Origin: Nautiliaceae bacterium
GTDB taxonomy: Bacteria > Campylobacterota > Campylobacteria > Campylobacterales > Nautiliaceae
DNA: 46,035 bases
Reading direction: 5' to 3'
NCBI GenBank assembly: GCA_027038555.1
Contig: JALVVX010000018.1
Coordinates: forward strand, 1-46,035
Shown here: positions 15,445-23,893 of the stretch, piece after piece
How positions within the stretch are numbered: the stretch's first letter is position 1
Layout of the letters: every line of letters starts with the position of its first letter
Notes under the pieces: generated by a model
Told to the model about the DNA's origin: nothing
Database searches by the model: none
The model's input: only the letters and a program-made list of their open reading frames with translations
Made by a program: the position numbers and the translations under genes

Positions 15445-17052
15445 TTAAAATAGTCTCAACACTACACCAGCACTAATAGCAATCTGATATAATATTTGTG
15501 TTATATCTTTTGTAATTTGTAAATTTTCACTGCTTGGTTTTCCTAAAACTAATATTGAATCTCCTTTTTTTATTTTTATATGTTTTTTGAAAAATGCAGT
15601 ATCATCATATGTTATAACTTTTCCGCTTTGTCTAATAATTAATACATGCTCTTTATCAGCTCTATTGGTAAACCCTCCAACAGAATTTATATAATCTTCA
15701 AGAGTATATTTTGGCACATAAGTTTGAGCTCCTGGTATTTTAACTTCCCCTTGGATTGTAACAATTGAAGATTTTTTAGGGACATATATAGTGTCTCCTT
15801 CTTCTAAGATTACATTAGAGAGATTTGTGTCTTTATTTAAAACTACTCTCCCTTTTGGCTGAATTTGTCTTGCTCTTTTTATAAAGTTTAAAATAAGCTC
15901 TGCTTCTTCTTTTTTTATTGTTGCTCCAGCAGTTGTAACTGAGCTTGATGTTAAAACTTTTTGCTCCAAATCTTTAAGTTGAGCATCAATTAATTGTTTT
16001 TGAAGTTTTGCTATGCTTTTTCTATATAGTTGAATTGCATTTTTATTTGCAAAAGGTGAATAATTTAATTCATTTAAAACCTCTTTTAAAGATGTACCTT
16101 TTTTAACAATCAAAGTATGAGAACCTTTTATAGCTCCATCAAGTTTAATAGTAATCTGCTTTGCGTTATGTTCTGAAATGAAATTAACCTCATCTCCGTT
16201 AAAAATAAAAGGATTATCATTTATACTATATTTTTTTGTAATAAGTTTTCCATTTTTATCCCAATGCTTTACAATTACACTTGTCGCTGTTTCATTTGGA
16301 AGTGCATATTTTTTAAATTTTTGAAGAGTAATTTCAGGATATAAAAGCTCAAATCTATAAGCCCTTTTTACATCTCCTGTTACGTAGATATAATATTTTA
16401 AACTATCTACATATATTATATCTCCATTTTTAAATTCCATCATTTGTAAATTTCCACCAAGTAAAAAGTTATATAAGTCATAGCTTCTTATAATCTTTCC
16501 ATTTCTTTTTACATAAATTTTTCTAAAACTTCCATTTTTAAGATTTATACCTTTTGCTTTATCAAGAAATTGAATTATACTATCACTGCTAAGCCCTTGA
16601 TAAAGCCCTGGATAATTTACATTTCCTGTTACAAAAACATTTACGGGTTGATAATTTAATACATTTGCGTATACAAAAACATTATTCTTAAATACTTTTT
16701 TTACTGCGTTTTGAATAACAATATTAAGTTTTGAAGCTTCAAGCCCTAATACATGAATTACACCTACTTTTGGAATAAAAATATTTCCTTGATTATCTAC
16801 TTCTACAACAAGCTGGTTTTCAAACGCTCCCCAAAAAACTATGGAAATTTTATCTCCTATATTAATTCTATAATGTGGGTTATAAATAAATTGTTTGATA
16901 TTTGCAAAATGCCCCTTGAATAAATTATATCCAAAAGGTTTTTCTTTTAAAGTAATATTATTTTCACTATCTACTGGTGTTTGTGTCATAGCAATATCTA
17001 CAGCCCACACTAAATTTATAATAAGTATTAAAAAAAGTAATATTTTTTTCAT
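15445..17052 (-). CDS. kpsD: capsule polysaccharide export protein KpsD-like
   Basis: The 535-residue protein has a clear signal peptide (residues 1-17, cleavage likely after LVWA) and no lipobox cysteine, as expected for KpsD rather than the lipoprotein Wza. A polysaccharide export domain follows at about 55-140 (YRINIGDKISIVFWG; VTGNVNYPGLYQG). SLBB-type domains come next (ITIKLDGAIKGSHTLIVKKG; VTIQGEVKIPGAQTYVP), with a short coiled-coil between them. It forms the periplasmic/outer-membrane part of the ABC-dependent export channel. Length agrees with KpsD of Campylobacter and E. coli (about 550). It sits 9 bp after kpsE. Confidence 0.9.
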   Translation of the reverse strand: MKKILLFLILIINLVWAVDIAMTQTPVDSENNITLKEKPFGYNLFKGHFANIKQFIYNPHYRINIGDKISIVFWGAFENQLVVEVDNQGNIFIPKVGVIHVLGLEASKLNIVIQNAVKKVFKNNVFVYANVLNYQPVNVFVTGNVNYPGLYQGLSSDSIIQFLDKAKGINLKNGSFRKIYVKRNGKIIRSYDLYNFLLGGNLQMMEFKNGDIIYVDSLKYYIYVTGDVKRAYRFELLYPEITLQKFKKYALPNETATSVIVKHWDKNGKLITKKYSINDNPFIFNGDEVNFISEHNAKQITIKLDGAIKGSHTLIVKKGTSLKEVLNELNYSPFANKNAIQLYRKSIAKLQKQLIDAQLKDLEQKVLTSSSVTTAGATIKKEEAELILNFIKRARQIQPKGRVVLNKDTNLSNVILEEGDTIYVPKKSSIVTIQGEVKIPGAQTYVPKYTLEDYINSVGGFTNRADKEHVLIIRQSGKVITYDDTAFFKKHIKIKKGDSILVLGKPSSENLQITKDITQILYQIAISAGVVLRLF

Positions 17053-17061
17053 TTTTTACCT

Positions 17062-18144
17062 TTAATCTAAATGTTCTTTTATTATTGCCTGAATTAGTGA
17101 AATTATTCCATACAATAAAAACAACACAAGTCCAATTGTAATAATATCTTTTAATTTTTCAGGATATTTGTATCCTTGCGGTATAACAGGTTTTGTAATT
17201 TCAAGTAAAATTTTAGAATTTTTATTTATTTCGGCTTTTAATTGTTCTAGTTGTATTAAAGACTGTTTATATAAATCTTTATTAAGCTCAACAAGTCCTT
17301 TTAATCTTTCAAATTCAAAGATATATACATTTAATGCTTTGTTTTTTGGATTTGCAAGCGCTTTTTTTATTTTAGAAATAGTTGCTTTTAAGTTTTTTAT
17401 TTCACTTTTTAATCTTATTATTTCAAAACTTTTAGGATTCATATATTGTGAAAGTTCATTTAATTTAGCTTCTTTTTCTATTAGTGCGGCTTTTAAATTA
17501 GATAACAGTGTAAATTCCGCCGCTGCTGTTTGTGTAGGATCAAGTAAAATATGCTTATTTTGAAACTCTTCAAGTTTTTTAATAGACTCTTCAAGAGCTT
17601 TTTTATTTTTTTCAACCTCTTCTTTTATAAATTTTAACTGTTTTTTTGCAATTAATTTATTATAATAATTAAGTTGATTATTAGCATCGTTTATAAGTTC
17701 TTTTACTATTTCATAAGCAGTTTTTGGATTAGTATGTAAAAACCCTATTTTAATTATACCAGTTTTATCATCATAAATATATTCAAGTCTTTTTAAATAT
17801 AATTTTAAAAAATCCTCTTTTGTGCTCCAAGGTTTAAGTCTGTCTAAAATATCTACTTTACTGCTTGAATAATGCTCTTTTAAATGAAATTTTTTGTTTA
17901 ATTTATTTAATTCATCAAAAGAACTTAAATAAGTTTGAATAATATATACATCTTGGGTATTACTACTACTGGGCAAAAGAAAAGAAAAACTTCCAAAAGA
18001 AGCGGTTTTAGTATTTAAATTTTTTATTACTATATTAGAATACGACTCATATAGTTCTGATTTTATAAATAAAACATAAATGGAAGATATGATAAATAAT
18101 AATATAAATATTATTTCTTTAATTTTTGTCTTAATATTACTCAT
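17062..18144 (-). CDS. kpsE: capsule export inner-membrane protein KpsE-like
   Basis: The 360-residue protein belongs to the polysaccharide co-polymerase type 3 group. It has one N-terminal membrane segment (about 10-27, IIFILLFIISSIYVLFI), a long periplasmic region with extended coiled coils (about 165-310), and a C-terminal membrane segment (about 333-352) after a proline-rich PVIPQGYKYPEKLKD. It links the KpsMT transporter in the inner membrane to KpsD. It overlaps kpsT by 4 bp. Length and topology match KpsE. Confidence 0.88.
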   Translation of the reverse strand: MSNIKTKIKEIIFILLFIISSIYVLFIKSELYESYSNIVIKNLNTKTASFGSFSFLLPSSSNTQDVYIIQTYLSSFDELNKLNKKFHLKEHYSSSKVDILDRLKPWSTKEDFLKLYLKRLEYIYDDKTGIIKIGFLHTNPKTAYEIVKELINDANNQLNYYNKLIAKKQLKFIKEEVEKNKKALEESIKKLEEFQNKHILLDPTQTAAAEFTLLSNLKAALIEKEAKLNELSQYMNPKSFEIIRLKSEIKNLKATISKIKKALANPKNKALNVYIFEFERLKGLVELNKDLYKQSLIQLEQLKAEINKNSKILLEITKPVIPQGYKYPEKLKDIITIGLVLFLLYGIISLIQAIIKEHLD

Positions 18145-19247
18145 AATTGCTCCATTTTTTTTATGATATTTAATATAATATTTTTCTCTTCTTTTTTTAA
18201 TAGATTAATTTTTTGATTTTTTAATATTTTAATAAAAAATTCTTTTCTTTTTGAAAAAATAACATCGCTTTTATTTTGTAATTCTATATCCAAAAAAACT
18301 TTTGTATTGAATCTTTTTAAAAAACCCGTAAAATGTCTTAATATCTTTTCTTCTGTTAAATTATCCCTTTTTTGAACACATAACTCTTCAATTGTAGGAT
18401 TTATTCTTTTACATAAAAATTCTTCATTTACTTCAAAAAGTATATATTTATTGATATATTTAATGATAAATATCAAATAAAATTTACCTTCATCTTCAAT
18501 AAAAAAAGCCTCTTTAACTAAGGAATCAAATTTATTACGCTTATAAAAAAATAAATCTTTTATTTCCTCTTCTTTTATTCCATACATTAAATTTATTTGT
18601 TGATATCTCTCAATTGCATCAGAAATTTTATCATAATATTCAATATTTCCATTATTCAAAACTATCCCAACATCACAAATCTTTTTTAAATCGCTCATAG
18701 AGTGACTAACCATTAAAACATTTGATTTTTCTATTTTTTTCATTAATGCTTCTTTTGATTTTTCTTTAAATCTTGTATCTCCGACAGATAATGTTTCATC
18801 AATCAATAAATAATCAAAATCAAATGCAAGGCTTAAAGCAAAACTGAGCCTACTTTTCATCCCGCTACTATAAGTTTTTATTGGCATATCAAAATAATCC
18901 CCTATTTCACTAAACTCTTTTACAAATTCTATAATTTTTTTTACTTCTTTTTCATCTTTTCCAAAAATCCTTGCGACAAATCTCACATTTTGTCTGCCTG
19001 TCATACTCCCTTGAAATCCTCCTGCAAGCCCCATAGGCCATGAAAATGTTTTATTTGAAATTATTTTCCCACTATTTGGAAAATCAATCCCTCCAAGCAT
19101 TCTCAAAAAAGTAGACTTCCCAGCTCCGTTAATTCCCAAAATTCCAACATTTACTCCCTCTGGAATTGTCATAGAAACATTTTTTAAGATATACTTTTTA
19201 CCTAAATTTGTTTTATAATATTTTGTAACATTTTCCAAAACTATCAT
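18141..19247 (-). CDS. kpsT: capsule ABC transporter ATPase KpsT-like, with long C-terminal extension
   Basis: The ATPase powers export of lipid-linked capsule through KpsM. Residues 1-220 form a complete ATPase of the polysaccharide ABC-2 type: Walker A GINGAGKST (38-46), signature YSSGMKSRL (126-134), Walker B YLLIDE (146-151), and the switch histidine 182. Classic KpsT ends near residue 220, but this protein continues to 368. The extra 148 residues (FYLIFIIKYINKYILFEVNE; FLDIELQNKS) look like alternating strands and helices and match no domain I recognise. By analogy with Wzt, whose C-terminal domain binds the glycan, the extension might recognise the sulfated polymer; that is speculation. 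Overlaps kpsM and kpsE by 4 bp each. Confidence 0.88.
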   Translation of the reverse strand: MIVLENVTKYYKTNLGKKYILKNVSMTIPEGVNVGILGINGAGKSTFLRMLGGIDFPNSGKIISNKTFSWPMGLAGGFQGSMTGRQNVRFVARIFGKDEKEVKKIIEFVKEFSEIGDYFDMPIKTYSSGMKSRLSFALSLAFDFDYLLIDETLSVGDTRFKEKSKEALMKKIEKSNVLMVSHSMSDLKKICDVGIVLNNGNIEYYDKISDAIERYQQINLMYGIKEEEIKDLFFYKRNKFDSLVKEAFFIEDEGKFYLIFIIKYINKYILFEVNEEFLCKRINPTIEELCVQKRDNLTEEKILRHFTGFLKRFNTKVFLDIELQNKSDVIFSKRKEFFIKILKNQKINLLKKEEKNIILNIIKKMEQL

Positions 19248-20017
19248 GACATAATTATCTTTCTTTCAACTTTTCTATAAAGCCAAAGTCCTAAAAAAAG
19301 AGGAATTATTGTCCATAACCAGATATATGTATAATTTACATATTTATCACTCAAACTATAAAAATAATATCCATGAATCATCTCTTCAAATTGTAGTACA
19401 GGATTAAAAAGCAAAATATTTCTTATATTTGGCGGTAGAGTATCCGCAGTAAAAAAAAGACCTGATATAAAAAACATAGGCAAAAACATTAATCTTATAA
19501 TTTTTCCAAAATTTTCAAAAAAATAATTAAGAACTGCGAACAATACAGATAAAGAAAATCCAAATAAAGCCATCCAAAAAAATCCCAAAATAACTAATAA
19601 TAAATCTTTTGCTTTCATATCTACATTAAAATAATATCCTATAACTATTAATACAATAACTACAAAAATTTGAATATAAATTTCCAAAATTGCTCTACTA
19701 ACCAATGCATCAAAAGGTTTAACTTGTTTATAAACAAATAAATTTTTATTTGCCTTAAAAGCATCAATATTTTTAAAAATTATATCTTTAAATAAATTAT
19801 AACTAACAAAACTAACAGCTAAAAATGTTACTATATCATAAGAAGTTTTAGTCCCTATTTTCGCATGAATTAACGCAAAAAACACTATCATAGCCATCGG
19901 CTCAACAACTGCCCATAAATATCCGAGTTTTTGTGAGCCAAATCTTGTTTGAATTTCCCTAAGAAGCAATGCCTTAACAACAGAAAAAAATATTCTTAAT
20001 GGACTTCTTTTTTTCAT
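19244..20017 (-). CDS. kpsM: capsule ABC transporter permease KpsM-like
   Basis: The 257-residue ABC-2 type permease has a basic N-terminus with LLLREIQTRFGSQKLGYLWA, the family hallmark, followed by about six membrane segments and a short C-terminal tail (YRKVERKIIMS). It forms the inner-membrane pore for lipid-linked capsule. It is the first gene of the long minus-strand unit. A TATAAT box lies 20 bp upstream of its start, and an AAAGGA site precedes the ATG. Confidence 0.92.
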   Translation of the reverse strand: MKKRSPLRIFFSVVKALLLREIQTRFGSQKLGYLWAVVEPMAMIVFFALIHAKIGTKTSYDIVTFLAVSFVSYNLFKDIIFKNIDAFKANKNLFVYKQVKPFDALVSRAILEIYIQIFVVIVLIVIGYYFNVDMKAKDLLLVILGFFWMALFGFSLSVLFAVLNYFFENFGKIIRLMFLPMFFISGLFFTADTLPPNIRNILLFNPVLQFEEMIHGYYFYSLSDKYVNYTYIWLWTIIPLFLGLWLYRKVERKIIMS

Positions 20018-20058: not shown

Positions 20059-21015
20059 TCAAACTTTAAATTTTTTAATATTAGGCAATAAACTCTCTAT
20101 AAACTTAATAATCTCCTCTTTATCTTTATATTCCACAATACCGTTTTTTACGCTGTAAGGATAATAATAAATATCACTAAGAAGCTGTTTTTTTATAATT
20201 TTAAATTGAGTTGAGTTCATTCTAAATGTTCCGTAAACTATTGATTCAATATCTTTATAATCAATTTCTCTAAAAATCTTTTTTATAAACTCCTCATACA
20301 CTTTTTTGTAATTTGGTACTTTAATAATAGGGTCAAACACAATTACCGGTCTGAAACCTTTATTAATCACCTTTTTAATGGCTTTAATTCTACTATCAAG
20401 TTTTGGTGTGTATTTTTCATATTTTTCAATTACAATTTCAGGTGAGAGAGAAAAAGCAAAAACAATATTTTTCTGATATTCAAATCCGTCCACATTTACA
20501 GCTTTTGTGCGAAGTTCAAGTTTAATATCTTTATTCTTTACAAAATCAGCCCAGATTTTAGCAACTCCAAAAAGATTTTCAACCGCTAAAATATCGGTAT
20601 CGTATGAAATAGATAAAAACATATTTCCTAAATTTTTATAAACCTTTTCAACCTCATCAAAAAAATCCTCAAAATTTACAAATAAAACAAGATTTGAGCT
20701 TGGATACATCCCCTGTAAAAAACAGTAATGACAGTCATAAATACAGTTTAACATAGGAGTGGTATAAAAAAAGTTTTTATCCTGCTTTTGAATAAGTTCA
20801 CTTGCCCCGTATATAAAAGGGGCTTCTTTTTTTGCCAAAATAAGAGACTGAGCCTGTTTTTGCGCCCGGAATGACTGATAGTATGGATTAAATCTGTCTT
20901 TATAATGGTTTATTTCTATAATTTCGGCACCTTTAAATTTAGTCAAAATTTTTTGTACATAACTGTCATTTAAAACCCTTTTTTCGACATAAATATGGCT
21001 AAATCTTAAATTCAT
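20059..21015 (-). CDS. spore-photoproduct-lyase-like radical SAM protein
   Basis: The 318-residue protein carries the radical SAM cluster motif C-x3-C-x2-C as CIYDCHYC near residue 90, within the context typical of the SplB family. Further family-like stretches are ISYDTDILAVENLFG, LELRTKAVN and VFAFSLSPE. These three are the only cysteines in the protein. Spore photoproduct lyase needs an additional catalytic cysteine in the region that here reads SYDTD, so this is probably a family member with another reaction. Non-sporulating Campylobacterota have no spore photoproduct. Its start overlaps the upstream nucleosidase gene by 17 bp, which suggests a joint function. Confidence 0.75.
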   Translation of the reverse strand: MNLRFSHIYVEKRVLNDSYVQKILTKFKGAEIIEINHYKDRFNPYYQSFRAQKQAQSLILAKKEAPFIYGASELIQKQDKNFFYTTPMLNCIYDCHYCFLQGMYPSSNLVLFVNFEDFFDEVEKVYKNLGNMFLSISYDTDILAVENLFGVAKIWADFVKNKDIKLELRTKAVNVDGFEYQKNIVFAFSLSPEIVIEKYEKYTPKLDSRIKAIKKVINKGFRPVIVFDPIIKVPNYKKVYEEFIKKIFREIDYKDIESIVYGTFRMNSTQFKIIKKQLLSDIYYYPYSVKNGIVEYKDKEEIIKFIESLLPNIKKFKV

Positions 21016-21730
21016 TCATTATTCTCCTAAAATCATTTTTGCGCTCAGACTTTTTAAAATCAATATCCGGCAATTCTAAATTATTTAAAAGATAATACAT
21101 TACCCTATTTTTTAACTGCTCTTTTTGTGAAAAGCTTAAATCATATTTTTTTGCTAAATCTTCAACTACTTTTAAATCAAAATGTTTAGGCTCTTTTAAA
21201 GAATTTATATAATTTTCTATATTTTTTAAATGCGGGGTTATTAAATTATTCATAAATTCATCACTTGGTCTAAAACAGACTAAATTATCACTTACTATTT
21301 TTATTAAATGAATTTGATGGGATTTCAAAAACTTTATGGCAGCTTTAAAAAAGCCTTCACTTTCCATATCTACTAATTTATAATTTCCACTCTCGACAAC
21401 CTCATCAAAACAGATTATTTCACTTTCTCTAAATGGATGAGAAATTAAAATATCCGGGAAAAATTTATTATTTATTTTATTAACTAAAAATATCTCTCCT
21501 ATTTCAAACTCACTGCTTCCTGCAATTCCAAAATTTATAATATTTGAAATTTTGCGTGTTGAGAGAAGATAAGTTGTGGCAATAGCGGAATTTAATCTGC
21601 CCTGATTTGAGATTATAAGCGATATTTTTTCATTTTCATAAATAGAAAATTTATCATTCCTCTTTTTTAATCCGAAATATTCAATCAAAAGTTTTGCTTC
21701 TTTAAAATAAGCGCATACAATTCCTGTCAT
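20999..21730 (-). CDS. MTA/SAH-nucleosidase-like protein
   Basis: From the ATG at 21730 the protein has 243 residues. The region GIVCAYFKEAKLL matches the start of MTAN/Pfs, including the active-site Glu. IINFGIAGS, VDMESEGFF and IVSDNL match the nucleoside-binding loop, the ME-x-E pair and the catalytic Asp of that family. A C-terminal 50-residue extension (SFSQKEQLKNRVMYYLLNN) is unassigned. The ATG at 21730 is preferred over an upstream TTG at 21757 because AAAAGG stands 5 nt before it and the TTG would lie inside the -10 box. It may remove 5'-deoxyadenosine made by the overlapping radical SAM protein. Confidence 0.72.
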   Translation of the reverse strand: MTGIVCAYFKEAKLLIEYFGLKKRNDKFSIYENEKISLIISNQGRLNSAIATTYLLSTRKISNIINFGIAGSSEFEIGEIFLVNKINNKFFPDILISHPFRESEIICFDEVVESGNYKLVDMESEGFFKAAIKFLKSHQIHLIKIVSDNLVCFRPSDEFMNNLITPHLKNIENYINSLKEPKHFDLKVVEDLAKKYDLSFSQKEQLKNRVMYYLLNNLELPDIDFKKSERKNDFRRIMNEFKI

Positions 21731-21769: not shown

Positions 21770-21916
21770 ATGAGACTAGTTCCTTTTATTATAGCGTTTG
21801 GGGCAAGTTTTTTGCCTGATAGATTCTTTAAAATGAATTTTGTGACTTCTTTAATTGTAAGTACAATTGTATACTATGTAGTTTATAAAATAGTAAAAAA
21901 TATGATGGAAATATAA
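21770..21916 (+). CDS. 48-residue membrane peptide upstream of lutA-like gene
   Basis: A strong AAAGGAG site stands 5 nt before the ATG. The peptide starts MRLVPFIIAFGASFLPDRFF, has a second hydrophobic stretch (SLIVSTIVYYVVYKIV), and ends MMEI. It therefore looks like a small protein with one or two membrane segments. Its TAA overlaps the ATG of the next gene by one base (TAATG), a typical sign of translational coupling. I do not recognise a family. Confidence 0.7.
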   Translation: MRLVPFIIAFGASFLPDRFFKMNFVTSLIVSTIVYYVVYKIVKNMMEI

Positions 21917-22629
21917 TGAACGTCGGATTATTTATACCATGCTATATAAATGAATTATATCCTGATGTTGCCAAAGACACTGTACTGCTTTTAAGGTCAT
22001 TAAATGTTGATTTGGAAATACCAAGAAACCAGACTTGTTGCGGTCAGCCGTTTTTAAACAGCGGATATGAAAGCACTCTGCCTCAAAATTTTGATGAAAT
22101 TTTTAAAAAATATGATTTTGTTGTGGCCCCTTCAAGCAGCTGTGTAGCAACAATTAGAGATGCTGATATTAAAAACTCAAACAAAACTTTTGAACTTGTT
22201 GAATTTTTACATGATATACTTCAAATAAGAAACCTGGCAAAAAATCATCCGCCTGTAATACTTCATAACTCCTGCCACTCTTTAAGAATGCTTCTTGAAG
22301 GTGCTCCGAGTGAACTTAATATCCCGTATTTCAATAAAGTCAAAAATGTTTTAGGTTGCAGGATTTTAGAAGCCAAAAGAGATGAATGTTGCGGGTTTGG
22401 AGGTGTGTTTAGTATTAAAGAAGGCTTTATGAGTTATGTTATGGGAAAAAGTAAATTGGTTGATTTATTAAATGAAGACAATCTAAAAGAAGTTACAGAC
22501 ACACCGGTAATTACGGGAGTTGATATGAGCTGTCTTATGCACTTAAAAGGAGTGGCTGAGAAAGATAAAATAAAAGCTGAGTTTAAGCACATAGCAACTG
22601 TTTTAAGGGAAGCAAATGAAACATTATGA
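21916..22629 (+). CDS. lutA: LutA/LldE-like iron-sulfur protein (CCG domains)
   Basis: The 237-residue protein has two cysteine-rich CCG domains: CCGQPFLNSGY with Cys41-Cys42 and CCGFGGVFSIKEG with Cys158-Cys159. HNSCHSLR and SSSCVAT supply further ligands. This is the architecture of LutA, a component of the L-lactate oxidising LutABC complex; related CCG proteins occur in glycolate and heterodisulfide redox complexes. It overlaps the LutB-like gene by 14 bp. Role in lactate use is likely by family, but in an autotroph another 2-hydroxyacid or redox partner is possible. Confidence 0.85.
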   Translation: MNVGLFIPCYINELYPDVAKDTVLLLRSLNVDLEIPRNQTCCGQPFLNSGYESTLPQNFDEIFKKYDFVVAPSSSCVATIRDADIKNSNKTFELVEFLHDILQIRNLAKNHPPVILHNSCHSLRMLLEGAPSELNIPYFNKVKNVLGCRILEAKRDECCGFGGVFSIKEGFMSYVMGKSKLVDLLNEDNLKEVTDTPVITGVDMSCLMHLKGVAEKDKIKAEFKHIATVLREANETL

Positions 22630-23893
22630 ACTGGCTGTTGAGTTTTATAAAAAACAGGGTCCAAGGCATGACAGTGCATTATGGGCTATAAGAGAAAAAA
22701 GAGACAAAGCTATAAAAGAGGTTAAAGAGTGGGAGAAATTAAGAACAAAAGCCGGTGAAATAAAAGATTATGTAATCGAAAATCTACAAAAATTAGTATA
22801 TGAATTTATAAAAAACGCTAAAAACGAAGGTATTGAAGTCTATTTTGCAAAAGATGCAAACAAGCATAATGAAATTGTTTTAAAAGAACTTAAAAATATA
22901 AACGCCAAAAAGGTCGTAAAATCAAAATCAATGCTTACAGAAGAATGTGGGCTTAATGAATTTTTGGAAAAAAACGGTATTAATGTAATCGATACAGATT
23001 TGGGTGAAAGGATAGTTCAGTTAAGAGGTGAAAAACCTTCTCATATTGTTCTTCCCGCTATTCACACCACAAAAGAAGACGTTGCGGAAATTTTAGGAGA
23101 GAGTAACACAGACCCGACATATTTAACCCGTAAAATGAGAAAACTTTTAAGAAAAGAATTTTTAAGCGCGGATGCCGGAATTAGCGGGGCAAATTTTTTA
23201 ATTGCCGAAAAAGGATACGCGGTTGTTTGCACCAATGAAGGAAACGCAGACCTTGGGGCAATACTTCCAAACCTTCATATCATAAGTGTTGGAATTGAAA
23301 AATTGGTTCCTTCTATGGAAGATTTGGGGCTGTTTTTAAGAGTACTTGCCAGAAGTGCAACAGGTCAGGCAATAACGACTTATTCCACAATATTCGGCAA
23401 AAAAGAAGGAGGCAGACGGGTAATAATTTTGGTAGATAACGGAAGGTTTGAGAGATTAAACACTCAGTTTAAAGAGACTCTAAAATGTATAAGATGTTCT
23501 GCCTGTCTTACAACCTGCCCTGTATTTAGAAGAAGCGGGGGACACAGCTACCGTTATGTAATTCCTGGTCCCATAGGCTCGCTTCTTGCCCCGCTTGTAG
23601 ATAAAGATGAGTATAAAGATTTACCATTTGCCTGTACTTTATGTGATAGCTGTGAGATGGTGTGCCCTGTTAAAATTCCTTTTTCAAAACAGCTTCGTGA
23701 AATGAGAAAATATGTAACAAATGAAAATATAATGGTTAAATTTGCCGAAAAATCCATGCATTCAGACAAAATGTTTAAACTTTTTAGCAAAATAATAAGA
23801 CTTACTCCAAAAGCGTTGCTTGAAAAAGTAATCAGTGAATGGAGCAGATATAAAGCCATGCCTGTTATTCCAAGAGAAAGGTTTATTAAATGA
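22616..23893 (+). CDS. lutB: LutB-like LUD-domain ferredoxin protein
   Basis: The 425-residue protein has a LUD domain at about 60-280 (GANFLIAEKGYAVVCTNEGN; LVDNGR). Two [4Fe-4S] motifs follow: CIRCSACLTTCP (Cys291, 294, 297, 301) and CTLCDSCEMVCP (Cys340, 343, 346, 350). This is the layout of LutB/LldF, the electron-transfer subunit of L-lactate dehydrogenase. It is somewhat shorter than the usual 460-480 residues. It overlaps the LutA-like gene by 14 bp and is followed directly by a large palindrome. Confidence 0.88.
   Translation: MKHYELAVEFYKKQGPRHDSALWAIREKRDKAIKEVKEWEKLRTKAGEIKDYVIENLQKLVYEFIKNAKNEGIEVYFAKDANKHNEIVLKELKNINAKKVVKSKSMLTEECGLNEFLEKNGINVIDTDLGERIVQLRGEKPSHIVLPAIHTTKEDVAEILGESNTDPTYLTRKMRKLLRKEFLSADAGISGANFLIAEKGYAVVCTNEGNADLGAILPNLHIISVGIEKLVPSMEDLGLFLRVLARSATGQAITTYSTIFGKKEGGRRVIILVDNGRFERLNTQFKETLKCIRCSACLTTCPVFRRSGGHSYRYVIPGPIGSLLAPLVDKDEYKDLPFACTLCDSCEMVCPVKIPFSKQLREMRKYVTNENIMVKFAEKSMHSDKMFKLFSKIIRLTPKALLEKVISEWSRYKAMPVIPRERFIK

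Follow-up and report, generated by a model that had tools for sequence, protein, structure and literature searches.

Spore photoproduct lyase (SPL), which repairs 5-thyminyl-5,6-dihydrothymine in the DNA of bacterial spores, is the textbook example of SAM recycling among radical SAM enzymes. In MTAN, a set of Glu, Met-Glu and Asp residues serves in water activation, ribose hydroxyl binding and purine protonation, respectively. The succession of a radical SAM enzyme and a nucleosidase is known from the futalosine pathway, in which MqnE acts first and MTAN/MqnB then removes adenine. Regarding the SPL of Bacillus subtilis, Cys141 and Tyr97/Tyr99 have been named as functional residues, and its C141A and Y99F variants lose SAM regeneration and free one 5'-deoxyadenosine per turnover (PMC3742179), while Cys74 is the H donor of the C. 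acetobutylicum enzyme (PMC5368176). Radical SAM enzymes are inhibited by 5'-deoxyadenosine, which a nucleosidase removes (PMC6079011), in agreement with the background on which the original prediction for the present locus had drawn, and in microcin C maturation MccD is stimulated by a nucleosidase that hydrolyses a SAM by-product (PMC10491745).

The window analysed in this study, a stretch of 46,035 nucleotides from a Nautiliaceae bacterium, carries two genes whose products resemble SPL and MTAN (Table 1), with both reading frames lying at the coordinates first given for them. The frames overlap by 17 bases, which comprise the stop of the MTAN-like gene and the start of the radical SAM gene, and for the former a start at TTG 21757 is less likely than one at ATG 21730. 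We propose that the two genes probably encode a conserved two-enzyme unit, consisting of a SAM-consuming enzyme of the SPL fold and a nucleosidase that releases adenine from a 5'-deoxyadenosyl product or by-product. The folds, catalytic residues, gene coupling, fusions and domain relocation described here are shown by computation. The genes flanking the pair at 15445-20017 (-) are unrelated to it and resemble a set for capsule export, with a polysaccharide export protein, a chain-length protein and both an ABC ATPase and a permease; divergent genes similar to the LutA/LutB lactate-utilisation iron-sulphur proteins are located at 21916-23893 (+).

Table 1. Positions of the radical SAM/MTAN-like gene pair and of its principal motifs in the window
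Feature	Position	Strand	Details
SPL-like radical SAM protein	20059..21015	-	318 aa, ATG at 21015
CX3CX2C cluster motif, Cys91/95/98, CIYDCHYC	20722..20745	-	Sequence; Cys in 60/60 relatives
Ile75, aligned with clostridial SPL Cys74	20791..20793	-	Profile-profile alignment; Cys in 49/60 relatives
SYDTD segment, Tyr138 at the SPL Cys140 (Gt)/Cys141 (Bs) site	20593..20607	-	Alignments; Tyr138 60/60, Asp141 60/60
MTAN-like nucleosidase	20999..21730	-	243 aa from ATG; 252 aa if from TTG 21757
Glu11, corresponding to catalytic Glu12 of E. coli MTAN	21698..21700	-	Glu in 52/52 resolved relatives and 5 canonical MTANs
DMES motif, Met122-Glu123, corresponding to ribose-binding Met173-Glu174 of E. coli MTAN	21359..21370	-	Glu in 55/55 resolved relatives
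Ser147-Asp148, corresponding to Ser196-Asp197 of E. coli MTAN (purine N7 protonation)	21287..21292	-	Asp in 54/55 resolved relatives
C-terminal helical domain of the MTAN-like protein	21002..21190	-	hhalign against long-group N-terminal extension

The radical SAM protein matches the Pfam SPL family PF20903 (63.7 bits, 1.8e-17, cut-off 27) and scores 68.8 bits against the SPL model TIGR04070, far under the equivalog cut-off of 400, clostridial positives attaining 479-552 bits. AlphaFold2 models of both proteins were computed from alignments of window and related-locus sequences, and that of the radical SAM protein (pLDDT 90.8) was found by Foldseek to resemble SPL 4fhg over its whole length (TM 0.85, 19% identity), with six SPL entries heading the ranking and the next fold reaching only 0.47. 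As foreseen from the sequence, its only cysteines are the three cluster ligands, and the segment at the SPL H-donor site reads SYDTD: residues 135-141 are SISYDTD, and a phmmer search against the PDB aligned Tyr138 with Cys140 (EAACTSD) of Geobacillus thermodenitrificans SPL. The cluster cysteines, Tyr38, Tyr97, Tyr138 and Asp141 are retained in 60/60 family members, among which position 99 is Tyr in 45, Phe in 13, Leu in one and Ile in one; the window protein has Phe99 beside the cluster motif, the residue of B. subtilis SPL being Tyr99. Alignment revealed no counterpart of the K-x-G-x-x-G-x-x-K-Y-x-Y segment that lies at the C-terminus of SPL. The invariance of Tyr138 and the recurrence of the pair across phyla place the observation far from chance, an origin by chance or artefact being ruled out by the invariant residues together with the co-occurrence described below.

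The lack of a Cys141-type donor had been regarded as distinctive of the window protein, a view which does not survive comparison with clostridial SPLs. L062 (552 bits against the TIGR04070 cut-off of 400) and its close relative L063, both of which score as SPL, have Ala at this position, and the C. acetobutylicum enzyme employs Cys74 (PMC5368176); absence of Cys141 is therefore no mark of a new enzyme. L062 and L063 possess a Cys inside an N-terminal KFQSCKPS that matches this published Cys74. A donor located elsewhere may indeed exist in most of the family, as 49 of 60 relatives have Cys at the Cys74-type position, so that the supposed lack of a donor stands for the window's clade, with its Ile75, and would fall for the majority. 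Besides this clade, SAR116 and part of the remaining Campylobacterota are without this Cys, but Cys is missing from both known donor positions solely in the window's clade and in a small number of relatives; Tyr138 and Ile75 thus place the window protein among the members without a possible cysteine donor. Where both cysteines are absent, Tyr138 would be our guess, as the obvious candidate, for a relay or substrate-contacting residue. In the window protein Tyr138 and Phe99 occupy the sites altered in the SAM-regeneration-defective C141A and Y99F variants of B. subtilis SPL, and a loss of SAM regeneration may, from sequence, be argued for the window's clade only, since most relatives keep Tyr99 and the Cys74-type Cys.

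The MTAN-like protein lies just below the cut-off of the Pfam model PNP_UDP_1 (23.7 against 25.1 bits), matches the NCBIfam MTAN/futalosine hydrolase models with E-values of 1e-5 to 6e-7, and scores far under the curated cut-offs of TIGR01704 (17.5/73.8 bits) and PRK05584 (23.8/169). Its AlphaFold2 model has the MTAN fold (pLDDT 92.5) and yielded Foldseek matches to MTAN/futalosine hydrolase. The Glu and Asp residues initially noted in this overlapping gene were found to be the expected ones, as Glu11, Glu123 and Asp148 align to the canonical Glu/Glu/Asp. By comparison with five canonical MTANs from related Campylobacterota, all of which have the 5'-side segment DLTVFGYEPGFIPES (VFGY...P), this segment is absent in the MTAN-like family, and approximately 30 more residues of the 5'-side region up to the Glu-Met-Glu motif are also missing. 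The retained Met-Glu motif points to an adenine ribonucleoside, so that, of the DNA or nucleotide reaction that had been envisaged, the DNA option is not supported. Each of the six related genomes tested has a canonical MTAN, in one as a contig-end fragment; it was not found in the 51 contigs of the window genome (G000), probably owing to an assembly gap. A second short PNP_UDP-family protein of approximately 190 aa is encoded in the window genome (G000:C32:7832-8011), with equivalents in the related genomes tested.

Analysis of 200 Campylobacterales genomes identified the radical SAM family in 91, a count that takes in a distant group of 390-450 aa, and the MTAN-like family in 90. Both genes occur in 85 genomes, the radical SAM gene alone in 6, the MTAN-like gene alone in 5 and neither in 104, corresponding to a Fisher p of 2e-42 when shared ancestry is ignored; the pair, with only one member in 11 genomes, is conserved in Campylobacterota, and it recurs outside its own genome in at least four phyla. 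Co-occurrence spans many families and persists with the genes up to 1.7 Mb apart (G126, G016 and G103). A point against the unit is that no MTAN-like gene was detected in five genomes that have the radical SAM gene (G069, G084, G107, G131 and G153), nor in G147, where the contig ends within the locus. Of 196 Clostridia sampled, 29 have the radical SAM gene, and all 29 carry an MTAN-like ORF directly upstream or fused to it, in one case as a fragment. Single-ORF fusions of nucleosidase and radical SAM protein (L137, L145/L146/L148 and L149) occupy at least three separate tree positions, namely two clostridial lineages and Fusobacterium, the 623-aa Fusobacterium fusion (L149) being followed by a dehydrogenase.

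Clustering of the neighbours of 60 loci placed the nucleosidase directly upstream in most short-family loci, and retrieved a short-chain dehydrogenase as the sole other recurrent neighbour, with no constant fourth gene beyond it. The specific dehydrogenase subfamily is present in 66 of the 200 Campylobacterales, accompanied by the nucleosidase in 64 and by the radical SAM gene in 60 of these; in the window's genus it was not found, although the pair is present. Radical SAM protein, MTAN-like protein and short-chain dehydrogenase often form a three-gene module, which in the window's genus is reduced to the pair. The notion of a two-protein system is accordingly strengthened as regards the coupling, for which co-occurrence, fusions and a relocated domain argue more strongly than had been noted, and amended as regards the number of components. 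Since the two genes are inherited together, and sometimes fused, in at least four phyla, they probably represent one working unit.

Phylogenetic analysis unites the short-family members of Campylobacterota, Clostridia, SAR116 and Fusobacterium in one clade with a support of 99/91, separate from both true SPL and the long group, while the arrangement of the latter two may be affected by long branches. The long group comprises SPL-like proteins of 390-450 aa from other Campylobacterota, in which the radical SAM protein bears an N-terminal extension and the nucleosidase, of 171-188 aa, is without a helical domain; the two genes overlap in 10/10 loci, which were picked for proximity. Comparison by hhalign of this extension with the helical domain of the short-group MTAN-like protein gave a score of 30.8, and of 34.1 (E 2.1e-6) with added sequences; column shuffling gave at most 7.6 in 147 trials and 9.1 in 199 trials, respectively, and the reversed control 5.8. 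This indicates, at the level of sequence profiles, that the extension and the C-terminal domain are probably the same domain. Its presence on either partner defines a unit composed of nucleosidase, helical domain and radical SAM protein, which is cut before the helical domain, cut after it or left uncut, and this relocation is the strongest argument for a putative physical complex.

In the proposed unit, the SPL-fold enzyme would split SAM to generate a 5'-deoxyadenosyl radical and would use SAM up, unlike SPL, which regenerates it. The MTAN-like partner, which may be held to the radical SAM enzyme via the helical domain and forms one polypeptide with it in some lineages, would then free adenine by splitting the N-glycosidic bond in the 5'-deoxyadenosyl compound, be it product or by-product, a release that would pull the radical SAM reaction forward. 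The short-chain dehydrogenase, where present, may reduce or oxidise the next intermediate. Release of adenine from a 5'-deoxyadenosyl compound is the most likely function, given that the nucleosidase is a dedicated one, carries a motif that reads the ribose and is attached to the radical SAM enzyme.

The 5'-deoxyadenosyl moiety can be accommodated in two ways, whose likelihoods are portions of that granted to the main proposal and do not add to it. It is tentatively suggested that the radical adds to a substrate, that the MTAN-like protein takes adenine off the adduct and that the sugar carbon so freed is then handled by the dehydrogenase, SAM possibly being a building block by analogy with MqnE of the futalosine pathway. 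Such a scheme would explain a dedicated nucleosidase despite the canonical MTAN of relatives, and the loss of DLTVFGYEPGFIPES and approximately 30 more residues of the 5' side is what a changed 5' substituent would lead one to expect; a natural third step is provided by the dehydrogenase, and the order of reactions resembles that of MqnE and MTAN, although MqnE structures are only weak fold matches. Against it, sequence kinship to MqnE ends with the radical SAM core, docking to the partner could account for the shortened pocket, and the window's genus is without the dehydrogenase. Only slightly less likely is the possibility that the nucleosidase only hydrolyses free 5'-deoxyadenosine, thereby relieving product inhibition and preventing the back-reaction, with the radical SAM product being handled elsewhere. 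The conserved catalytic residues of the MTAN-like family accord with such clearance, as do the established MTAN activity on this inhibitor of radical SAM enzymes (PMC6079011) and, by analogy, the nucleosidase stimulation of MccD (PMC10491745). However, this function would be redundant with the canonical MTAN of sister genomes, which could clear 5'-deoxyadenosine so that a dedicated nucleosidase would be unneeded for simple clearance, and the 5' pocket has been rebuilt although 5'-deoxyadenosine is a normal MTAN substrate. The rebuilt pocket, this redundancy and the dehydrogenase lead us to lean slightly towards addition of the radical to a substrate.

An improbable alternative has the nucleosidase working ahead of the radical SAM enzyme, or on some other, unrelated purine nucleoside, and thereby supplying that enzyme with its substrate: the MTAN-like gene precedes the radical SAM gene and either direction of the pathway would fit the data, but adenine as the base follows from MTAN homology, and SAM-derived nucleosides are the obvious adenine nucleosides beside a radical SAM enzyme. 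Most improbable is that the protein is a variant SPL that repairs a thymine dimer, or a lesion related to it, by means of Tyr138 instead of the cysteine, since the full-length SPL fold, and the filing of a homologue among DNA-repair genes of vent bacteria in the Nautilia profundicola genome paper (PMC2628731), are outweighed by a TIGR04070 score of 68.8 against 400 bits, coexistence with true SPL or close kin in five sampled clostridial genomes, the missing C-terminal segment, and the fact that repair of thymine dimers gives no reason for a hydrolase of purine ribonucleosides. That coexistence also rules out the family being a non-spore-former's substitute for SPL.

Returning to the preferred two-enzyme unit, its radical SAM protein shares with SPL (SplB; TIGR04070, PF20903; 4fhg/4fhc) the full-length fold, the CX3CX2C motif and Tyr97, and many relatives keep a Cys at the clostridial donor Cys74 site; it differs in the invariant Tyr138, which is Cys in Bacillus/Geobacillus SPL, in its link to a nucleosidase and in being without the C-terminal SPL segment. 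The evidence says that this SPL-fold family with its own nucleosidase is a separate family from SPL. The MTAN-like protein shares the fold and the Glu/Met-Glu/Asp set with MTAN (Pfs; TIGR01704)/aminodeoxyfutalosine nucleosidase, but lacks much of the middle region, has an added C-terminal helical domain and comes paired with, or joined in one protein to, a single radical SAM family. While the futalosine pathway has the same logic, in that an adenine-removing nucleosidase comes after a radical SAM enzyme, the window pair involves another radical SAM family and a dedicated nucleosidase with no adjoining menaquinone genes: no MqnE family match was obtained with Pfam or NCBIfam, Foldseek gave a weak fold match only (E 2e-4), and no mqn genes lie beside the pair, the neighbours being unrelated. 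With MccD and its MTA nucleosidase, the likeness consists in hydrolysis of a SAM-derived by-product that enhances the enzyme (PMC10491745), although MccD performs aminopropyl transfer rather than radical chemistry.

The relevant passages of the Nautilia profundicola genome paper file GAmH_0507 as an spl homologue under DNA repair and draw a short-chain dehydrogenase, GAMH_0506, beside it (PMC2628731), an arrangement also seen in Nautiliaceae relatives of the window; those passages on GAmH_0507 do not mention a nucleosidase partner. Vent-bacteria SPL homologues that were read there as DNA repair genes would thus belong to a separate, nucleosidase-tied family. In a vent metagenome study, splB is listed among genes important at high temperature and K03716 is counted (PMC10696704), and these counts plausibly include the radical SAM family of the window. 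A literature search that covered few subscription journals found no description of an SPL-MTAN-dehydrogenase module or of the nucleosidase link. We suggest, with considerable reserve, that adenosylation and adenine removal within one complex or polypeptide, finished by a dehydrogenase, may represent an uncharacterised pathway spread over four groups (Campylobacterota, Clostridia, Fusobacteriota and marine Alphaproteobacteria). If true, it would constitute a second, independent use of the ribose carbons of SAM as a building block, beside menaquinone biosynthesis. As SPL recycles SAM and its sister family has a nucleosidase attached, a switch of SAM from cofactor to substrate becomes testable, and the attached adenine-removing partner offers a handle on the reaction, through an adenine assay and product trapping, for which the substrate class is not needed.

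Several other origins were considered and rejected. The pair matched no PADLOC model at E 0.01, and an anti-phage defence system was discounted on that basis. A plasmid origin is discounted as the sole close plasmid match is the Fusobacterium record that contains L149 (NZ_CP084075.1, Fusobacterium vincentii, plasmid pSB055A), which at 2.1 Mb has a chromosome-like size and gene content. Likewise, the two 'phage' matches are gut scaffolds, and the one examined is flagged UNVERIFIED and has bacterial-type neighbours. In this record (L150; MT835514.1, 'Bacteriophage sp.'), the dehydrogenase, nucleosidase and SPL-like genes lie amid bacterial-type genes, and it is probably a bacterial gut contig.
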